Of a stretch of DNA of 64,000 nucleotides, positions 35,529 to 41,520 are shown piece after piece. The number at the start of each line of letters is the position of its first letter. The first letter of the stretch is position 1. Source of the stretch: Terriglobus albidus (GTDB lineage Bacteria; Acidobacteriota; Terriglobia; Terriglobales; Acidobacteriaceae); assembly GCF_025685425.1 (NCBI RefSeq), contig NZ_JAGTAS010000058.1, positions 744,001 to 808,000 of the forward strand, read 5' to 3'. The notes under the pieces are model-generated. The model made no database searches. It saw only the letters and a program-made list of their open reading frames with translations, and was not told the origin of the DNA. Made by a program: the position numbers and the translations under genes.

Positions 35529-36566
35529 TTATACCGTGCTCCAATCCAGGATGACCTTACCTGAGCTTCCTGCGCGCATGGCGTCGAAGCCCTTTTCAAA
35601 CTCGTTCCACTGGTAGCAATGCGTAATCACCTTACTGATATCAAGGCCCGACTGCAGCATCACCGTCATCTTGTACCAGGTCTCATACATCTCGCGGCCA
35701 TAGATACCGCGGATGGTCAGCTGATCGAAGATCACCTGGTTCCAATCAATCGCCATCTCCGAGGGCGACGGGATCCCCAGCATCGCGATCTTTCCACCAT
35801 GTGACATGGTTGCGATCATGTCGCGGAAGGCATGCGGATTGCCGCTCATCTCCAGCCCGACATCGAAGCCTTCGTGCATATCGAGCTGCTGCATTACATC
35901 TTTGAGGCTCGTCTCTTTCGGATTCACCGCCAGCGAAACACCCGCGGCCTTACGCGCCAGCTCCAGCCGCACCGGATTCAGATCCGTGATCACGACATGC
36001 CGCGCTCCGGCATGTTTCGCCACGGCGGCGGCCATAATGCCGATTGGGCCTGCGCCCGTCACCAGCACATCCTCTCCCAGCACTGGGAAGGCCAGTGCCG
36101 TGTGCACGGCGTTGCCGAAGGGATCGAAGATAGCCGCGACATCCGTCGGGATATTGTCGGCATGCCGCCAGATATTGGTCATGGGCAGCACCACATATTC
36201 GGCAAAGGCGCCGGGCCGGTTCACACCGACACCCAGCGTATGGGCACAGAGATGGCGCCGTCCTGCCAGGCAGTTGCGACAGCGGCCGCAGACCACGTGT
36301 CCTTCACCGCTCACCCGGTCTCCCGGATGAAAGTCAGTAACGTTGGAACCTACCTCAACGATCTCACCAACAAACTCATGGCCGATGGTCATCGGGACCG
36401 GGATGGTCTTTTGGGCCCACTCATCCCACTGATAGATATGGAGATCTGTACCGCAGATACCTGTTGCCAGAACCTTGATCTTGACGTCGTTGATGCCAAT
36501 CTCCGGCTCGGGAACATCTTCCAGCCACAGCCCTCTTTCGGCTCGGCTCTTGACGAGAGCTTTCAT
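35529..36566 (-). CDS. tdh: L-threonine 3-dehydrogenase
   Basis: 345 residues from ATG 36566 ([12 protein letters not shown]). A zinc medium-chain dehydrogenase: catalytic zinc region [17 protein letters not shown] and GHEFVG, structural zinc Cys set [18 protein letters not shown] fold [21 protein letters not shown]. It oxidises threonine to 2-amino-3-ketobutyrate for kbl. The frame is open to 36659 but the region before 36566 is not conserved and carries the divergent promoter of the Cys-leader operon. Confidence 0.95.
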
Positions 36567-36637
36567 GCGCAACCCTGCAGCTTTCCGGGCGTCCTTTGGG
36601 GGGTCGAACGCCGCCCCCATTTTAGTGCCCGCCGCCC

Positions 36638-36673
36638 TTGACGTGAGGCCTGGGAACATCTAACCTCTCAGTA
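36638..36673 (+). promoter_or_regulatory. Promoter giving a leaderless Cys-rich ORF
   Basis: TTGACG (36638-36643), a 17-base spacer and TAACCT (36661-36666) form a near-consensus sigma-70 promoter. Seven bases later is the A of ATG at 36674, so the expected transcription start is at or one base from the start codon. No ribosome-binding site precedes that ATG, as expected for a leaderless message. Confidence 0.7.
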
Positions 36674-36757
36674 ATGGTTATGAACCGCATCGCCGCTTGT
36701 ACCTGTTGCGTTTGTTGCAACAGCGTATGCTGCTGCGCGGTTTCTGACCTGGCCTAG
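36674..36757 (+). CDS. Cysteine-rich leader peptide 1 (27 aa, 8 Cys)
   Basis: ATG 36674 to TAG 36757. It begins MVMNRIAAC and then has Cys at positions 9, 11, 12, 14, 15, 19, 20 and 21. It is probably translated directly from the 5' end of the mRNA. Such density of Cys codons just before a terminator is the signature of amino-acid attenuation: when Cys-tRNA is scarce the ribosome stalls and changes RNA folding. A hairpin (36703-36709 with 36717-36723) lies inside the Cys codons and would be blocked by a stalled ribosome. The peptide itself is probably only a sensor. Downstream are a 42-aa membrane protein and a YeiH-type sulfur-linked transporter. Confidence 0.78.
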   Translation: MVMNRIAACTCCVCCNSVCCCAVSDLA

Positions 36758-36791
36758 CCAAAGCGTAAAAAGACGCTCCCAAGATTCAGAG

Positions 36792-36834
36792 ACCCACGCA
36801 TCAGCCAAAGCGCGATGCGTGGGTTTTCTCTTTC
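36792..36834 (+). terminator. Attenuator terminator upstream of the yeiH operon
   Basis: ACCCACGCATC (36792-36802) pairs perfectly with GATGCGTGGGT (36814-36824), followed by TTTTCTCTTT. It sits after the Cys-rich leader ORF and before the first structural gene, so it can only control read-through into that operon. The sequence AGCCAAAGCG in its loop also occurs at 36756-36765. A possible competing hairpin is 36762-36766 with 36773-36777. Confidence 0.8.
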
Positions 36835-36881
36835 CGGCGCATCGCGAACAACGAACCACCCCGGTAAGGAGTTTCGCAACG

Positions 36882-37010
36882 ATGTCACCGAATCAAACCA
36901 AGGCAGCCATCAAGCACAACACAGCCGTCATCGATATGCTGGCCATCGGCATTGCACTGACACTGGCCGTACTGGTACGCCTCAACGTCGTTCCGCATAT
37001 CAGCTTCTAG
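36882..37010 (+). CDS. Small single-pass membrane protein, 42 aa
   Basis: ATG 36882 with TAAGGAG 10 bases upstream; the frame is open further upstream but the terminator hairpin lies there. A short polar N-terminus (MSPNQTKAAIKHN) precedes one transmembrane helix (MLAIGIALTLAVLVRLNVV) and a tiny tail. It is 22 bases before the YeiH gene, so the two are probably co-translated and the small protein may be an accessory subunit. No family recognised. Confidence 0.6.
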   Translation: MSPNQTKAAIKHNTAVIDMLAIGIALTLAVLVRLNVVPHISF

Positions 37011-37032
37011 CACTTTGCAGTCTCGCTGAACC

Positions 37033-38130
37033 GTGTCTACCGTACTTGCATCCCCGGATACGTCCGCGCGGAGTTCCGCGTCTGCCTATAGGGCATTTTT
37101 GCGTCTGCTACCGGGCATGGCGCTGCTCTTCGGTATCGGGTTCCTCGGCAAGTTCATCGAGCATGAATTCACGCATCTCCGCACCGAGTACCACCTGCGT
37201 CTACCGCAGATCGAGTACGTGCTCTGGGCCATCATCCTGGGCCTCATCATCTCCAATTTCATCGGCATCAAACCCATCTTCCGCCCTGGTATCGCTACCT
37301 ATGAGCTCTGGCTGAAGCTCGGTATCGTTCTGGTTGGCGCACGCTTTGTCTTCTCCGATGTGTTGCGCATCGGCACTGTCTCGCTGGTGCTGGTCTTTAT
37401 CGAGCTGGCGCTGTCCCTCACTGTCATGACGCTGCTCGGCCGCATCTTCGGGCTGCGTCCAAAGTTGACCTCGCTGCTCGCCATCGGCTCTTCCATCTGC
37501 GGCGTCACGGCCATCATGGCTGCGCGCGGAGCCATCGAACCTGAAGAAGAAGACGTCTCGACCGCCATCGCCGCGATTCTCACACTTGGCGCAATCGCGT
37601 TGTTCACCTTCCCGGCGATCGGCCATATGCTCGGCCTCAGCCAGGAAAGCTATGGCATCTGGACCGGTCTGGCCGTAGATAACACTGCCGAGGCCACCGT
37701 GACCGGCGCCCTCTACGGCGATGTCGCTGGACGCTTCGCCATCCTTGCCAAGACCGCTCGCTCCGCCTTCATCGGCTTTGTCGTTCTTGGCTATGCCGTC
37801 TACTGGGCCTCCAAGGGCCAGGCGCCCGATGTACCCAACAAAGCGCTCTTCCTCTGGCAGAAGTTTCCCAAGTTCATCCTCGGCTTTCTAATCATCTCGG
37901 TGCTGGCGTCTTCGAGCTTCTTCAATACCTCGCAGCTCTCCAGCCTGAGCAATCTTTCGCGCTGGGCGTTTCTTCCGGCATTTGCCGGAGTTGGCCTGCG
38001 CACTGACCTGCGCGACCTGACCGGGCAGGGATGGCGGCCCATCGTGGTCGGCATCCTTGGCGAGATCTTCATCGCCCTGGTCACGCTTGGCCTGGTCTAT
38101 TGGACCTTCATTCGCGGAGGAATCCAATGA
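37033..38130 (+). CDS. YeiH/UPF0324 family putative sulfate exporter
   Basis: 365 residues from GTG 37033. About ten transmembrane helices with the family motifs GIKPIFRPGIATYELWLKLGIVLVGARF, LLAIGSSICGVTAIMAA, EEDVSTAIAAI and the WTGLAVDNTAEATV block. The family is annotated as putative sulfate or sulfite exporter; transport direction and substrate are not firmly established. Here a Cys-rich leader with attenuator precedes it and a second Cys-rich ORF overlaps its stop, both tying it to sulfur or cysteine supply. The start codon has no clear ribosome-binding site and may depend on coupling to the 42-aa gene. Confidence 0.85.
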   Translation: MSTVLASPDTSARSSASAYRAFLRLLPGMALLFGIGFLGKFIEHEFTHLRTEYHLRLPQIEYVLWAIILGLIISNFIGIKPIFRPGIATYELWLKLGIVLVGARFVFSDVLRIGTVSLVLVFIELALSLTVMTLLGRIFGLRPKLTSLLAIGSSICGVTAIMAARGAIEPEEEDVSTAIAAILTLGAIALFTFPAIGHMLGLSQESYGIWTGLAVDNTAEATVTGALYGDVAGRFAILAKTARSAFIGFVVLGYAVYWASKGQAPDVPNKALFLWQKFPKFILGFLIISVLASSSFFNTSQLSSLSNLSRWAFLPAFAGVGLRTDLRDLTGQGWRPIVVGILGEIFIALVTLGLVYWTFIRGGIQ

Positions 38131-38174
38131 TCTCTCGCCGCGGCTCCGCAGAATCCTGTTGTTGTTGTCGCTAG
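38127..38174 (+). CDS. Cysteine-rich leader peptide 2 (15 aa, 4 consecutive Cys)
   Basis: MISRRGSAESCCCCR, encoded by ATG 38127 to TAG 38174. GGAGG lies 7 bases upstream and the ATG overlaps the yeiH stop codon (ATGA), so ribosomes finishing yeiH can translate it. Four TGT codons in a row near its end make it a cysteine sensor candidate for the TonB receptor gene that starts 113 bases later. No intrinsic terminator is visible in that gap, so control might act through Rho or by masking the receptor's AAGGAG site. Confidence 0.7.
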   Translation: MISRRGSAESCCCCR

Positions 38175-38286
38175 CCCTCCCGGGCCGCGCACCTATCCTG
38201 CATCTTCTGGCAGTTCTCACTTCACATTCCAAGCCGCGCTGCACCTGAGCAGACGCGCACCAAAGAACCACAAGGAGATTGACTCC

Positions 38287-41200
38287 ATGCGCCGTATCGC
38301 ATACTTCGCTGCATTCCTGCTCTTATTCGCCAGCTTCGCTCTTCTCCGAGCCCATGCCCAGATGGTGGGCGGCTCCATCTCCGGCACAGTCACTGACGCC
38401 AGCGGCGCCGCCGTCTCCGGCGCAACCGTTACCGTCCGCAACGAAGAGACGGGCACAGAACGCCATCTGACCACCGACGCCCAGGGCCGCTACTCGGCTC
38501 CCTCCGTCACCATTGGCCGCTGGTCCGTCAGCGCGGAGAAGGACGGCTTCGCCCGCCAGACCCTCACCGCTGTGCCCGTTGTGGTCGGCCAGGCAGTCAC
38601 CGCTGATATCCGCCTTACGGTCGGTGAGGTCTCGCAGGCGGTCTCGGTCGTAGACACTCCGCCGGTCGTAAATCTGTCGACGCAGCAGACCGCCGGGCTC
38701 GTCGATGAGCGTGCCGTCAAGGAGCTCCCCCTCAACGGCCGCTCCTACGATCAGTTGCTGACGCTCAATCCCGGCGTCGTGAACTACACCGGCCAGCGCT
38801 CCGGTTCCGTCGGCACTTCGAACTCTTCCGTTGGCGCCATGTTCTCCGTTGCGGGCCGCCGACCGCAGGACAATATCTTCCTTCTGAACGGCATTGAGTA
38901 CACCGGCGCCTCGTTGATCAATGTCACCCCCGGCGGCGCGAGCGGACAGCTCCTCGGCGTCGATGCCGTGCGTGAGTTCAACGTCATCACCGACACTTAT
39001 GGAGCCAACTACGGCAAGCGTCAGGGTGCGCAGATCTCCATTGTTACCGCCAGCGGCACCAACCAGTACCACGGCAATGTCTACGAGTTCCTGCGCAACT
39101 CCTCTCTCGATGCTCGTAACTATTTCGACCAGCCAGGAGCCAACGGTAAGCGCCTGCCGCAGTTCCAGCGCAATAACTTTGGCGGCTCCGTCGGCGGACC
39201 TATCCGCAAGGACAAGCTGCTGCTCTTTGCCAACTACGAGGGATATCGCCAGAACCTCGGCCTCTCTAACAAAGCCATCGTTCCCAACGATCGCGCGCGC
39301 CAGGGATATGTTCCTAACAGCAGCGGAACCGGAGAGACTTACGTCGGCGTGGCGCCCGGCGCAGCGAATCTTCTGAATCTGTGGCCGCGGGCCAACGGGC
39401 CCGATCTCGGTTCAGGCCTGGCCTATGCGTACTCCAATCCGGTGCAGCGCATCCGCGAAGACTTCGGCACCACGCGTTTCGACTGGAACCTCGGCAGCAA
39501 AGACCAGTTCTTCTCCGTCTACACGGTCGATGACTCCACCGCCCACACACCAACCGTGAATCCGCTGACATGGATCAATGAAGACGTACGCGAGCAAGTC
39601 ACCAGCCTGCAGGAGCAGCATGTCTTCTCTCCGCGTCTGCTGAACACGGCGCGCTTCGGATACTCGCGCGCTGCTTTCTTCTTCACCGGCGAAGTTCCCG
39701 TGGATGGAGTTACGCCATTTGTGGTTGGCAGGCCGGTCGGAGCCATCGTCATCGCCGGTTCCACTGCGTCGAACGGAGTCTCCCAGGTCTCCACCGCAGG
39801 AGCCAATGTAGGCTCCAACAATCGCGCCGTACGCAACCTCTTCACCTTCGACGACCACATCTTCTACACCGTAGGCCGCCATCAGATCGAAGCCGGTGTA
39901 TGGCTGCAGCGGCTGCAGGCCAATGATCTGCTGGCGCAGAACCAGTATGGCCAGGCCTCGTTCTCCACACTCACAACCTTCCTGCAGGGCACAGCCGCCA
40001 CCTTCAGCGTCGTTCCGGCTCCGACAGCGCTTGGCTTCCGCGCTCTCTTCGGTGCGGGTTTTGTAGAAGATACTTTCCGCATCACTCCACGTCTCGAAAT
40101 CCGCGCCGGTTTCCGCTTCGAGTCAGCCAGCAACTGGAGCGAGGCGCAGAACCGCGCGGCTAACTACAAACTCAACAACTGGGTCATCGACACCAACCCG
40201 ACTGTCGGCAAGTATGCCCTTTACGACAACAAGGCCAAGTTCCTCCCGGAGCCTCGCCTGGGCCTCTCCTGGTCGCCCTTCGCCAGCGGTAAGACCGCGA
40301 TCCGCCTCGGCGTAGGTATCCATCGCGCCCTGCTGGATAATCTGGACTACCGTCTGACCCAGGTGGCCCCCTTCAATACAACCCTGGCCTTCAAGAACAT
40401 TCCCGTCTCTAGCCTGGCCATCACGCCATCGACTACGGCTGCAGCCGGTTCGCTGATCTCGCCCTCGAACGTACAGCCCGACATCCGCACTCCAACGGTC
40501 ATCGCCTGGTCGTTGCGCGTCGAACAGCAGATCGCTAACAACACCTCGCTTACCGTCGGTTATGCAGGATCACGCGGATACCACCAGATCGTCTCCGGCG
40601 ACCTCAACGAACCGCCCGCGGTGGTTTGCCCGAATCCATCCTGCCCTGCATCGCTGGCAGCTGGAACCGTCTACTATCCAACGACCACGAAACTGAACCC
40701 CAACGTCGCCAACACCACCTCCTGGTGGTCTGCTGCGAACAGCTTCTACAGCGCGCTCCAGGTGGATGTCCGCCGGCAGTTCTCGCACGGTCTGCAGATT
40801 CGCGGCAACTACACCTTTGCCCGCAACCTCGACAATGGCTCGGCATGGAATACCAGCGTCAGCGCCAACACGCCAGCCTTCGTCAGCGTTCCTTACTTCC
40901 CCAAGCTTGACTGGGGCCGGGCCGCCACGGATATCAAGCACAACGCGGCAATCAACGGCACCTGGGAGATTCCCTTCGCGCACCGCCTCAGCTCCGGCGT
41001 TGCACGTCAGACTCTGGATGGCTGGACGGTCAGCAGCATTGCAAATCTGCAATCAGGCTTCCCCTTTACGCCGCAGCTTGGCTATAACCCCACTGGCAGC
41101 GGAGACACCCGCAATCCGGTGCGCCCAGACGTCAATCCGAACTTCAATGGCGACCTTTATCCGCATACCGTCAACCAGTGGTTCAATCCCGCCGCCTTCA

Positions 41201-41520
41201 GCGCTCCCCACTACGGCGCGGTCGGTAACCTGGGACGCGACACCCTCACCGGGCCGCATCTCCTGAACGTTGACCTGTCTCTGCTCAAGCGCTTCAAGGT
41301 GGGTGAGCGGGTGAACGCCCAATTCCGGGCCGAGGCCTTCAACTTCCTGAACCACACCAACTTCGCCCTCCCCAACCCTACGGTCTTCAGCTCAGGCCCG
41401 ACACAAGGCACAGCCGCCAACCAGACCACCGCCGCGGTGGCTTCGTCCACGGCGGGGGCTATCACGGCAACCTCGACCACCTCCCGCCAGTTACAGTTCG
41501 GATTGAAGCTGGCCTTCTAA
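38287..41520 (+). CDS. TonB-dependent receptor 2, Oar-like
   Basis: 1077 residues with AAGGAG 9 bases upstream. Signal peptide (ends LRAHAQ), CarboxypepD_reg domain (about 28-110; GSISGTVTDASGAAVSGATV), plug domain (about 125-240; LPLNGRSYDQLLTLNPG, DNIFLLNGIEY, REFNVITDTYGANYGKRQG) and a barrel ending LKLAF. It would import a TonB-dependent substrate. Its place after the YeiH gene and a Cys-rich leader suggests a sulfur-containing substrate, which is an inference from context. A strong terminator follows. Confidence 0.9.
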   Translation: MRRIAYFAAFLLLFASFALLRAHAQMVGGSISGTVTDASGAAVSGATVTVRNEETGTERHLTTDAQGRYSAPSVTIGRWSVSAEKDGFARQTLTAVPVVVGQAVTADIRLTVGEVSQAVSVVDTPPVVNLSTQQTAGLVDERAVKELPLNGRSYDQLLTLNPGVVNYTGQRSGSVGTSNSSVGAMFSVAGRRPQDNIFLLNGIEYTGASLINVTPGGASGQLLGVDAVREFNVITDTYGANYGKRQGAQISIVTASGTNQYHGNVYEFLRNSSLDARNYFDQPGANGKRLPQFQRNNFGGSVGGPIRKDKLLLFANYEGYRQNLGLSNKAIVPNDRARQGYVPNSSGTGETYVGVAPGAANLLNLWPRANGPDLGSGLAYAYSNPVQRIREDFGTTRFDWNLGSKDQFFSVYTVDDSTAHTPTVNPLTWINEDVREQVTSLQEQHVFSPRLLNTARFGYSRAAFFFTGEVPVDGVTPFVVGRPVGAIVIAGSTASNGVSQVSTAGANVGSNNRAVRNLFTFDDHIFYTVGRHQIEAGVWLQRLQANDLLAQNQYGQASFSTLTTFLQGTAATFSVVPAPTALGFRALFGAGFVEDTFRITPRLEIRAGFRFESASNWSEAQNRAANYKLNNWVIDTNPTVGKYALYDNKAKFLPEPRLGLSWSPFASGKTAIRLGVGIHRALLDNLDYRLTQVAPFNTTLAFKNIPVSSLAITPSTTAAAGSLISPSNVQPDIRTPTVIAWSLRVEQQIANNTSLTVGYAGSRGYHQIVSGDLNEPPAVVCPNPSCPASLAAGTVYYPTTTKLNPNVANTTSWWSAANSFYSALQVDVRRQFSHGLQIRGNYTFARNLDNGSAWNTSVSANTPAFVSVPYFPKLDWGRAATDIKHNAAINGTWEIPFAHRLSSGVARQTLDGWTVSSIANLQSGFPFTPQLGYNPTGSGDTRNPVRPDVNPNFNGDLYPHTVNQWFNPAAFSAPHYGAVGNLGRDTLTGPHLLNVDLSLLKRFKVGERVNAQFRAEAFNFLNHTNFALPNPTVFSSGPTQGTAANQTTAAVASSTAGAITATSTTSRQLQFGLKLAF

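Follow-up and report, generated by a model that had tools for sequence, protein, structure and literature searches.

A putative cysteine-responsive transcription attenuator with a polycysteine leader upstream of a YeiH-type transporter operon in an acidobacterium

The leader and its surroundings in Terriglobus albidus

The window, by which we mean the whole 64,000-nucleotide stretch of Terriglobus albidus DNA analysed here (contig NZ_JAGTAS010000058.1, positions 744,001 to 808,000), contains on its forward strand two promoter-like boxes, a short reading frame rich in cysteine codons, a hairpin and genes for a small hydrophobic protein, a YeiH-type transporter and an outer-membrane protein (Table 1). 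The leader peptide, MVMNRIAACTCCVCCNSVCCCAVSDLA, has cysteine at 8 of its 27 codons, and the ATG lies 36 nt from the first T of TTGACG. The boxes and the frame are present just as an earlier, sequence-only reading of the locus had described them, and the hairpin that it placed within 35 bases of the frame has 11 pairs, lies 34 nt past the stop codon and carries a U-rich tail. Its arms are ACCCACGCATC and GATGCGTGGGT, separated by a loop of 11 nt, and the U tract of the tail, TTTTCTCTTT, is interrupted. That reading had the first real gene follow the hairpin; this has to be corrected, given that the 42-residue hydrophobic frame comes first, with YeiH behind it. On the opposite strand, 5' of the leader, lie genes of the zinc-dehydrogenase and aminotransferase types (by Pfam), which we take to be those for threonine dehydrogenase and its partner ligase.

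Table 1. Positions of the leader elements and downstream genes in the window
Feature	Coordinates	Strand	Basis or remark
-35 box TTGACG	36638..36643	+	read from sequence
-10 box TAACCT	36661..36666	+	17-nt spacer after -35
Polycysteine ORF, putative leaderless, ATG..TAG	36674..36757	+	27 codons, 8 Cys
Segment 1, protector 5' arm, codons 1-10	36676..36703	+	predicted pairing
First Cys cluster CCVCC, proposed stall site	36704..36718	+	
Segment 2, antiterminator 5' strand GCTGCTGCGCGG, overlaps second Cys cluster	36729..36740	+	predicted pairing
Spacer hairpin after stop, AGCGT/ACGCT	36762..36777	+	single-sequence folds, without control run
Segment 3, terminator 5' arm (36792-36802) and antiterminator 3' strand (36794-36805)	36792..36805	+	
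Segment 4, terminator 3' arm (36814-36824) and U-rich tail	36814..36835	+	
Hydrophobic small ORF, 42 aa, GGTAAGGAG upstream	36882..37010	+	no Pfam family
YeiH-type transporter	37033..38130	+	PF03601, E 1.9e-73; TIGR00698 below cut-off
TonB-receptor-like outer-membrane protein	38287..41520	+	CarboxypepD_reg and OMP_b-brl_4

The arrangement is real and non-random. A rule that demands TTGAC, 34-40 nt, ATG or GTG and an ORF of 10-48 codons with at least 3 Cys is satisfied once in the whole window, on both strands, namely by the leader ORF, and, with at least 4 Cys, finds no match in 88,831 bases of other loci from the same genome (L087-L116, fetched around a Cys-codon pattern). These control loci contain one true leader, L091 at a peroxiredoxin gene, which escapes the rule because its TTGAC is 43 nt away. 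The leader RNA folds with a z of -4.84, none of 200 shuffles being as stable. Simple promoter and terminator scanners reported neither the leader promoter nor the leader hairpin, the former because TAACCT is a poor match to the -10 box and the latter because the loop of 11 nt is over the scanner limit of 8. Pfam finds no domain in the leader peptide, and the Rfam covariance models give no match at the leader (window 36200-38300) or, in 13 sources of which 11 are leader loci, at the leaders there. What Rfam does report is one sub-threshold histone stem-loop inside YeiH in that part of the window and, in the other loci, tRNAs together with sub-threshold matches that overlap them.

Conservation of the leader, the hairpin and the downstream genes

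A scan of named genomes yielded 55 loci encoding relatives of YeiH; among 61 related genomes, 35 have a match. The leader is deeply conserved at such loci. It is present in 39 of the 40 fetched loci with YeiH identity of at least 67% (L002-L031, L049, L050, L057-L064), as a Cys-rich short ORF about 290-540 nt 5' of the extrapolated YeiH start, a count that is not one of independent loci, some being one genome reached via two collections (for example, L018/L064 and L005/L062, the latter pair with identical leaders). In all 39 leader loci, which had been chosen by a Cys-only rule with no prior demand for a promoter, the start codon (ATG or GTG) of an ORF with at least 6 Cys is preceded at 35-40 nt by TTGAC. 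Two further carriers, L034 and L056 (the latter with a partial YeiH at a contig end), stand outside the 40 loci. The exception is L019, where a YeiH of 75% identity has no leader; there, the gene lies directly behind an adenylylsulfate kinase gene (L019:2278-4023), a juxtaposition that suggests a link of YeiH to sulfate assimilation. Among the YeiH loci of at most 64% identity together with those of actinobacteria (30 loci, 27 with 700 nt upstream), a convincing leader was found in L034 only. Within this distant group, a Cys-rich frame in L065 was read and not accepted as a leader, and one in L067, with 7 Cys and TTGCTG, is a candidate only.

Deduplication of 36 hand-picked leaders, for which a -35 box was required, at 92% ORF identity left a set of 28 that includes L034 and L056. 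These start with ATG (26) or GTG (2) and have 25-32 codons with 4-11 Cys; 27 of the 28 carry the motif CCxCC. In the 28-row alignment, TTGAC is invariant, the rows having been picked with the -35 requirement, and in the -10 box the first T is invariant while the first A and the last T reach at least 90%; the one TTGAC distance of 22 comes from a second, nearer TTGAC. Gaps within the ORF are mostly multiples of three, and outside the Cys codons the peptide varies strongly between sequence groups. Because the spacing from promoter to start codon is fixed, initiation is probably leaderless, with transcription starting at ATG 36674 or within 1-2 nt of it; predictions put the share of leaderless genes in three acidobacterial genomes at 9.7-19.4% (PMC3160421).

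The hairpin, too, is kept. In the same alignment 88.1% of its cells are paired, 6 pairs are altered on both sides, and on four of five measures none of 500 column shuffles scores as high (4 of 500 on the fifth). Its arms can be quite different, for instance CCCGCGC/GCGCGGG in L010, CCCAAGC/GCTTGGG in L031 and CCCATGTCAGC/GCTGACATGGG in L049. The automatic finder picked another hairpin in L006, L017 and L056; the arms CCCACGC/GCGTGGG are present in L006 and L056 and absent from L017, where no antiterminator and no terminator stands out clearly. In the comparison among relatives that the sequence-only reading had proposed as a check, the promoter and the Cys clusters are kept, as are both terminator arms with their compensatory changes. 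We interpret the hairpin as an intrinsic terminator, at which termination is predicted.

Between terminator and YeiH, 27 of the 28 leaders are followed by a small hydrophobic ORF of 38-63 aa, none being listed for L026; it is possibly a transporter subunit. Such an ORF is also found 5' of YeiH genes without a leader (L040, L065, L066, L068, L070). A counterpart of the TonB receptor follows YeiH in 28 of 36 loci, that of the window included, in which YeiH is at least 67% identical and at least 1400 nt are available downstream; the window itself aside, these counterparts are 56-98% identical over the aligned part. None was found in the 30 YeiH loci of at most 64% identity, bar a 26% match in L040. 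The receptor-like gene of the window is perhaps in the same operon as YeiH.

Alternative pairings and the proposed switch

Which parts of the leader could act as the switch? The sequence-only reading had put forward a hairpin inside the Cys codons (36703-36723) and a duplicated AGCCAAAGCG (36756 and 36803). Neither survives as the key element: the duplication is already lost in L061, a locus with a YeiH of 91% identity, the hairpin turns out to be just the tip of a longer predicted protector helix, and the best antiterminator is provided by the distal part of the ORF itself. In the window, GCTG-C-TGCG-C-GG (segment 2) can pair with CC-A-CGCA-T-CAGC (in segment 3), and segment 2 can pair either with the 5' arm of the terminator or with the first codons of the ORF. 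In L049 and L034, the pairing segment comes after most or all Cys codons and still matches their divergent terminators. Near the position of the spacer hairpin of the window, a hairpin of differing sequence is predicted in relatives.

The antiterminator core has 86.7% of its cells paired versus 11-49% with a slid partner, the columns having been defined by the pairing in the window, a choice that favours the true register over slid versions. Column shuffles reach the native number of paired cells in 2 of 500 cases and the native covariation score in 3 of 500; on the other three measures the signal is weak, 23-26 of 500 reaching the native value. When partners are permuted, 4 of 20000 permutations give duplexes as good. 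The z is negative in 26 of the 28 leaders, with a mean of -1.68, and only -0.86 against synonymous-codon shuffles, so that part of the complementarity between segments 2 and 3 must be due to the Cys codons themselves. In L018 and L023, the antiterminator is no better than shuffles.

The protector helix was assessed leader by leader because a MAFFT/RNAalifold consensus (alignment A2), which recovers the terminator and some of the inner helix of the ORF, missed the outer helix. The native protector duplexes average -23.6 versus -19.6 kcal/mol for permuted ones, none of 20000 permutations being as good; the z is negative in all 28 leaders, and the ORF alone folds as a single long imperfect hairpin in all 28, to which L016 adds a second small one. 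Since relatedness inflates such per-leader counts, z was averaged within nine groups, each of whose means is negative for both pairings. The combined z is -4.89 (antiterminator) and -4.87 (protector) against dinucleotide shuffles and -3.33 and -4.46, respectively, against synonymous-codon shuffles, the groups being defined by us from the peptides and mutually homologous, so that the combined z is not a true probability. Together, sequence comparison and modelled folds support the antiterminator and the protector as mutually exclusive alternative pairings.

With the ribosome represented by masking, folds made before segment 4 exists give a mean antiterminator probability of 0.68 for a ribosome stalled at the first cluster, 0.37 for free RNA and 0.00 for a ribosome at the stop codon; in the window leader, the antiterminator forms at this stage even without a ribosome (0.73). 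Once segment 4 is present, the antiterminator averages 0.23 versus 0.65 for the terminator with a stalled ribosome, and 0.00 versus 1.00 in the window leader. On average, the terminator still wins at full length despite the stalled ribosome, and any switching would have to be a kinetic competition.

Attenuators of the trp and his operons consist of four segments, with 1:2 as protector, 2:3 as antiterminator and 3:4 as terminator. The acidobacterial leader follows the same four-segment logic; it differs in its putative leaderless start, in its Cys codons and in that segment 2 is part of the leader ORF and shares bases with the second Cys cluster. It shares with this class the repetition of codons for the presumably sensed amino acid (8 of 27 in the window, 230 of 784 in the 28 leaders), a predicted intrinsic terminator before the first gene, as read from the sequence, and an antiterminator and a protector, as suggested by comparison and energy, with L017, L018, L023 and the reductase leader L205 (see below) as exceptions. 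The combination of terminator, antiterminator and protector helix points to a classical transcription attenuator, with control of translation as a less likely mode.

We are quite confident that the leader in the window is a cysteine-responsive, ribosome-controlled transcription attenuator, in which ribosome stalling and the dependence on cysteine are the parts that we infer. Transcription would begin at or 1-2 nt from the ATG, and 70S ribosomes would load at the 5' end. With no translation, segments 1 and 2 would pair, as would segments 3 and 4, and RNA polymerase would stop. With ample Cys-tRNA, the ribosome would reach the stop codon and mask segment 2, allowing the terminator to form. When Cys-tRNA is scarce, the ribosome would stall at the first Cys cluster and open the 1:2 helix, and the freed segment 2 would pair with segment 3 while segment 4 is still to be transcribed; the ensuing antitermination would permit read-through into the operon of the small ORF, YeiH and the TonB receptor. 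In short, a tiny gene that consists in large part of Cys codons probably lets this soil acidobacterium sense cysteine and switch a sulfur-related transport operon; that it senses Cys-tRNA, in which direction it responds and what YeiH does are presumptive.

If the family-wide regulon considered below exists, the acidobacterial YeiH operon would import a sulfur source when cysteine is short, despite the family name attached to TIGR00698 ('YeiH family putative sulfate export transporter'). Beside this uptake reading, YeiH may export sulfite that accumulates during a block in cysteine synthesis; the Salmonella protein makes the cell resistant to sulfite (PMC12880088). Either way, the attenuator would offer a functional clue for YeiH, the uncharacterised TonB-type receptor and the small hydrophobic protein. 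The upstream neighbours of YeiH, considered as another source of such clues, were set aside: of 10 ORFs in 9 loci, 6 are without Pfam family and 4 lie outside sulfur metabolism.

Related leaders at other genes and known systems

A covariance model built on 27 leaders, each taken from its ATG to its terminator, matches 93 of 250 genomes of the family at E of at most 0.1. All 18 matches below 1e-20 encode YeiH-type peptides and are followed by a YeiH gene; L135, L136, L147 and L148 are followed by one as well, which makes 22 of 22. A phylum-wide draw of 297 genomes gave matches in 36, and no match below 1e-3 lies outside the family; the model being trained on YeiH leaders and its filters strict, this says little about other leaders elsewhere. 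The weaker matches that were fetched and read are mostly those below 1e-3. L158 apart, 44 of 56 non-YeiH matches have a short ORF of at least 4 Cys at the match, with TTGAC 33-43 nt upstream in 33 of those 44; the Cys count is tied to the model, and TTGAC, which the model does not cover, and the downstream genes are independent of it. L185 counts among the leaders, its TTGAC being 36 nt upstream. The other 12 of the 56 fail the 4-Cys rule: L149-L155, L165, L167, L179 and L194 resemble other elements or coding sequence, and L170, before a reductase gene, has 3 Cys and TTGACT. L191 passes the rule, lacks TTGAC and resembles coding sequence.

The leader recurs before sulfur genes. The genes after the non-YeiH leaders are those for a NirA/SiR-type reductase, CysD, a 1-Cys-type peroxiredoxin and, as judged by eye, TonB receptors. 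The reductase has NIR_SIR domains and scores below the cut-off of the NirA-like NCBIfam model, compatible with sulfite or nitrite as substrate; CysD is above its family cut-off; and in L186 the peroxiredoxin is followed by a cysteine-synthase-like gene that scores below cut-off and is cut by the end of the stretch. A siroheme-methyltransferase-like gene lies after the reductase in L196, L206 and L209 (by eye), and in L158 two polycysteine leaders diverge, one facing CysD. Among these downstream genes, CysD and the peroxiredoxin-cysteine synthase locus belong to cysteine metabolism, the NirA/SiR-type reductase likely does, and for YeiH and the TonB receptor such a link is only plausible.

A permissive finder detects a terminator in all of 51 non-YeiH leaders chosen by eye (L159, L174, L185, L189, L192, L193 and others were omitted), and 3 of 10000 permutations beat their native antiterminator duplexes. 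The mean antiterminator z is -0.91 for 21 reductase, -0.83 for 24 peroxiredoxin and -1.63 for 5 receptor leaders and +0.43 for the one CysD leader, so that many single cases show nothing. The genome of the window has a reductase leader, L205, with MQTAKNTCCCSAACCCV, TTGACT 37 nt before the ATG and a terminator; here the antiterminator is undetectable, worse than shuffles (z +1.67), as it is in two near relatives (+1.31 and +0.71). The peroxiredoxin leader of this genome, L222, has MITRFANSCMCCCRCCCCGPMRVCE, TTGACA at 43 nt, a terminator and an antiterminator with a z of -2.36. Across the genus, a Cys-rich ORF at the proper distance from TTGAC precedes the reductase in 7 of 16 scanned loci (3 of 19 were left unscanned) and a second reductase, 32-35% identical, in none of 6 scanned loci; a Cys-rich short ORF lies upstream in 17 of 19 peroxiredoxin loci. 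At CysD of the window genome (L251), a frame of 13 codons with 3 Cys and no TTGAC is not claimed as a leader. Peroxiredoxin leaders without TTGAC were seen in L137, L138, L140, L141, L142 and L162, and L141, L142 and L162 share GCTAGCTTAGCTGGC upstream of the leader ORF, perhaps another type of promoter.

The polycysteine attenuator that the sequence-only reading proposed ahead of the YeiH operon thus gains good support from comparison, but the element is not confined to YeiH. The sequences point to what is likely a cysteine attenuation regulon in the family, for which a response to Cys-tRNA is predicted. We lean, by a narrow margin, towards the broader view that in Acidobacteriaceae a regulon of leaderless polycysteine transcription attenuators is a main cysteine sensor, tying sulfate activation by CysD, sulfite reduction, peroxide defence by a peroxiredoxin (in one case with cysteine synthase) and the transport operon, which spans outer and inner membrane, to the charging of Cys-tRNA. 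This class of leaders now has a probable signal, a putative switch and a set of target genes.

How does this class relate to known systems? Canestrari et al. reportedly described, in 2020, attenuators with leaderless polycysteine ORFs in mycobacteria. These share with the acidobacterial leader the short leaderless ORF, the runs of Cys codons and the position upstream of cysteine-related genes, and by analogy are its nearest counterpart in the input stage; the available parts of the reports describe them as translation control (PMC9031893, PMC13236596), whereas the leader considered here, from a different phylum, has a terminator and competing helices. The 'same logic' seen by the sequence-only reading applies to the kind of ORF and probably not to the mode of control. 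A mycobacteria-like scheme, in which stalling in the ORF frees the ribosome-binding site of the following gene and the hairpin does not act as a terminator, would fit the leaderless polycysteine ORF; in addition, several CysD loci of the genus (L240-L246, L254, L256) have Cys-rich short ORFs with TTGAAT or no -35 match and no obvious terminator by eye, which are possibly attenuators of the translation type. Given the U-rich tail of the YeiH hairpin, its stem kept by compensatory changes and, in the window, a GGTAAGGAG about 40 nt past the hairpin, we consider this scheme highly improbable for the YeiH leader, but a translational mode, at those CysD loci, may exist beside the transcriptional one.

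By description, the nearest counterpart in the output stage appears to be the uORFC-8-2 motif, found exclusively upstream of cysS in Rhodobacterales and proposed to act by ribosome-mediated attenuation; it likewise combines a Cys-codon uORF with a U-run terminator, but has two Cys codons, usually at positions 14-15, and the accessible part of the source mentions no leaderless start (PMC8632094). Candidate cys leader peptides of Mycobacterium, Propionibacterium and Bifidobacterium similarly have runs of Cys codons before cys/cbs genes, but the mycobacterial regions lack conserved terminator hairpins, as far as the accessible part of the source goes (PMC1262725). Among the open-licence titles listed, none concerns a polycysteine leader attenuator in Acidobacteria. 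A leaderless polycysteine ORF coupled to a terminator and an antiterminator in a phylum far from mycobacteria would imply either convergence or a wider, so far unnoticed distribution.

A different kind of sensor has to be taken as a serious alternative because it, too, heads a TonB-receptor operon. CruR of Bordetella, a Cys-containing uORF product, is described in the available part of the report as a copper-responsive DUF2946 protein with CXXC and RAPP motifs that acts through Rho-dependent termination (PMC9426467). In an analogous scheme, the Cys-rich nascent peptide would bind copper or another metal and thereby set stalling, and the receptor would import the metal. However, Pfam finds no domain, DUF2946 included, in the window peptide, the RAPP arrest motif is absent from the leader peptides examined, the spacing of Cys differs widely among leaders, and the co-regulated genes (CysD, NirA/SiR and, once, cysteine synthase) belong to sulfur assimilation and the cysteine pathway rather than to copper, all of which makes metal sensing very unlikely. 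Least credible of all is that the ORF yields a Cys-rich micropeptide with a function of its own, such as buffering redox state or a metal, and that the terminator only trims expression: the ORF is retained with gaps mostly in threes, but the peptide varies much outside the Cys codons, and its codons stay complementary to the terminator and to one another beyond the level of synonymous shuffles. The cysteine-responsive attenuator remains the preferred reading.

Another conserved leader element, CTCCCTTCGGGTTGAGTC..ACGAAGTCCACCCACTTCGT, with a very similar terminator, came to light near the model match in L149, L150, L152, L153, L154, L165 and L167, and a similar one in L151; Rfam has no match at it in L149 or L151. 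A transporter-like gene follows it in L149 and L153; in L167 it lies about 200 nt 5' of a YeiH leader.
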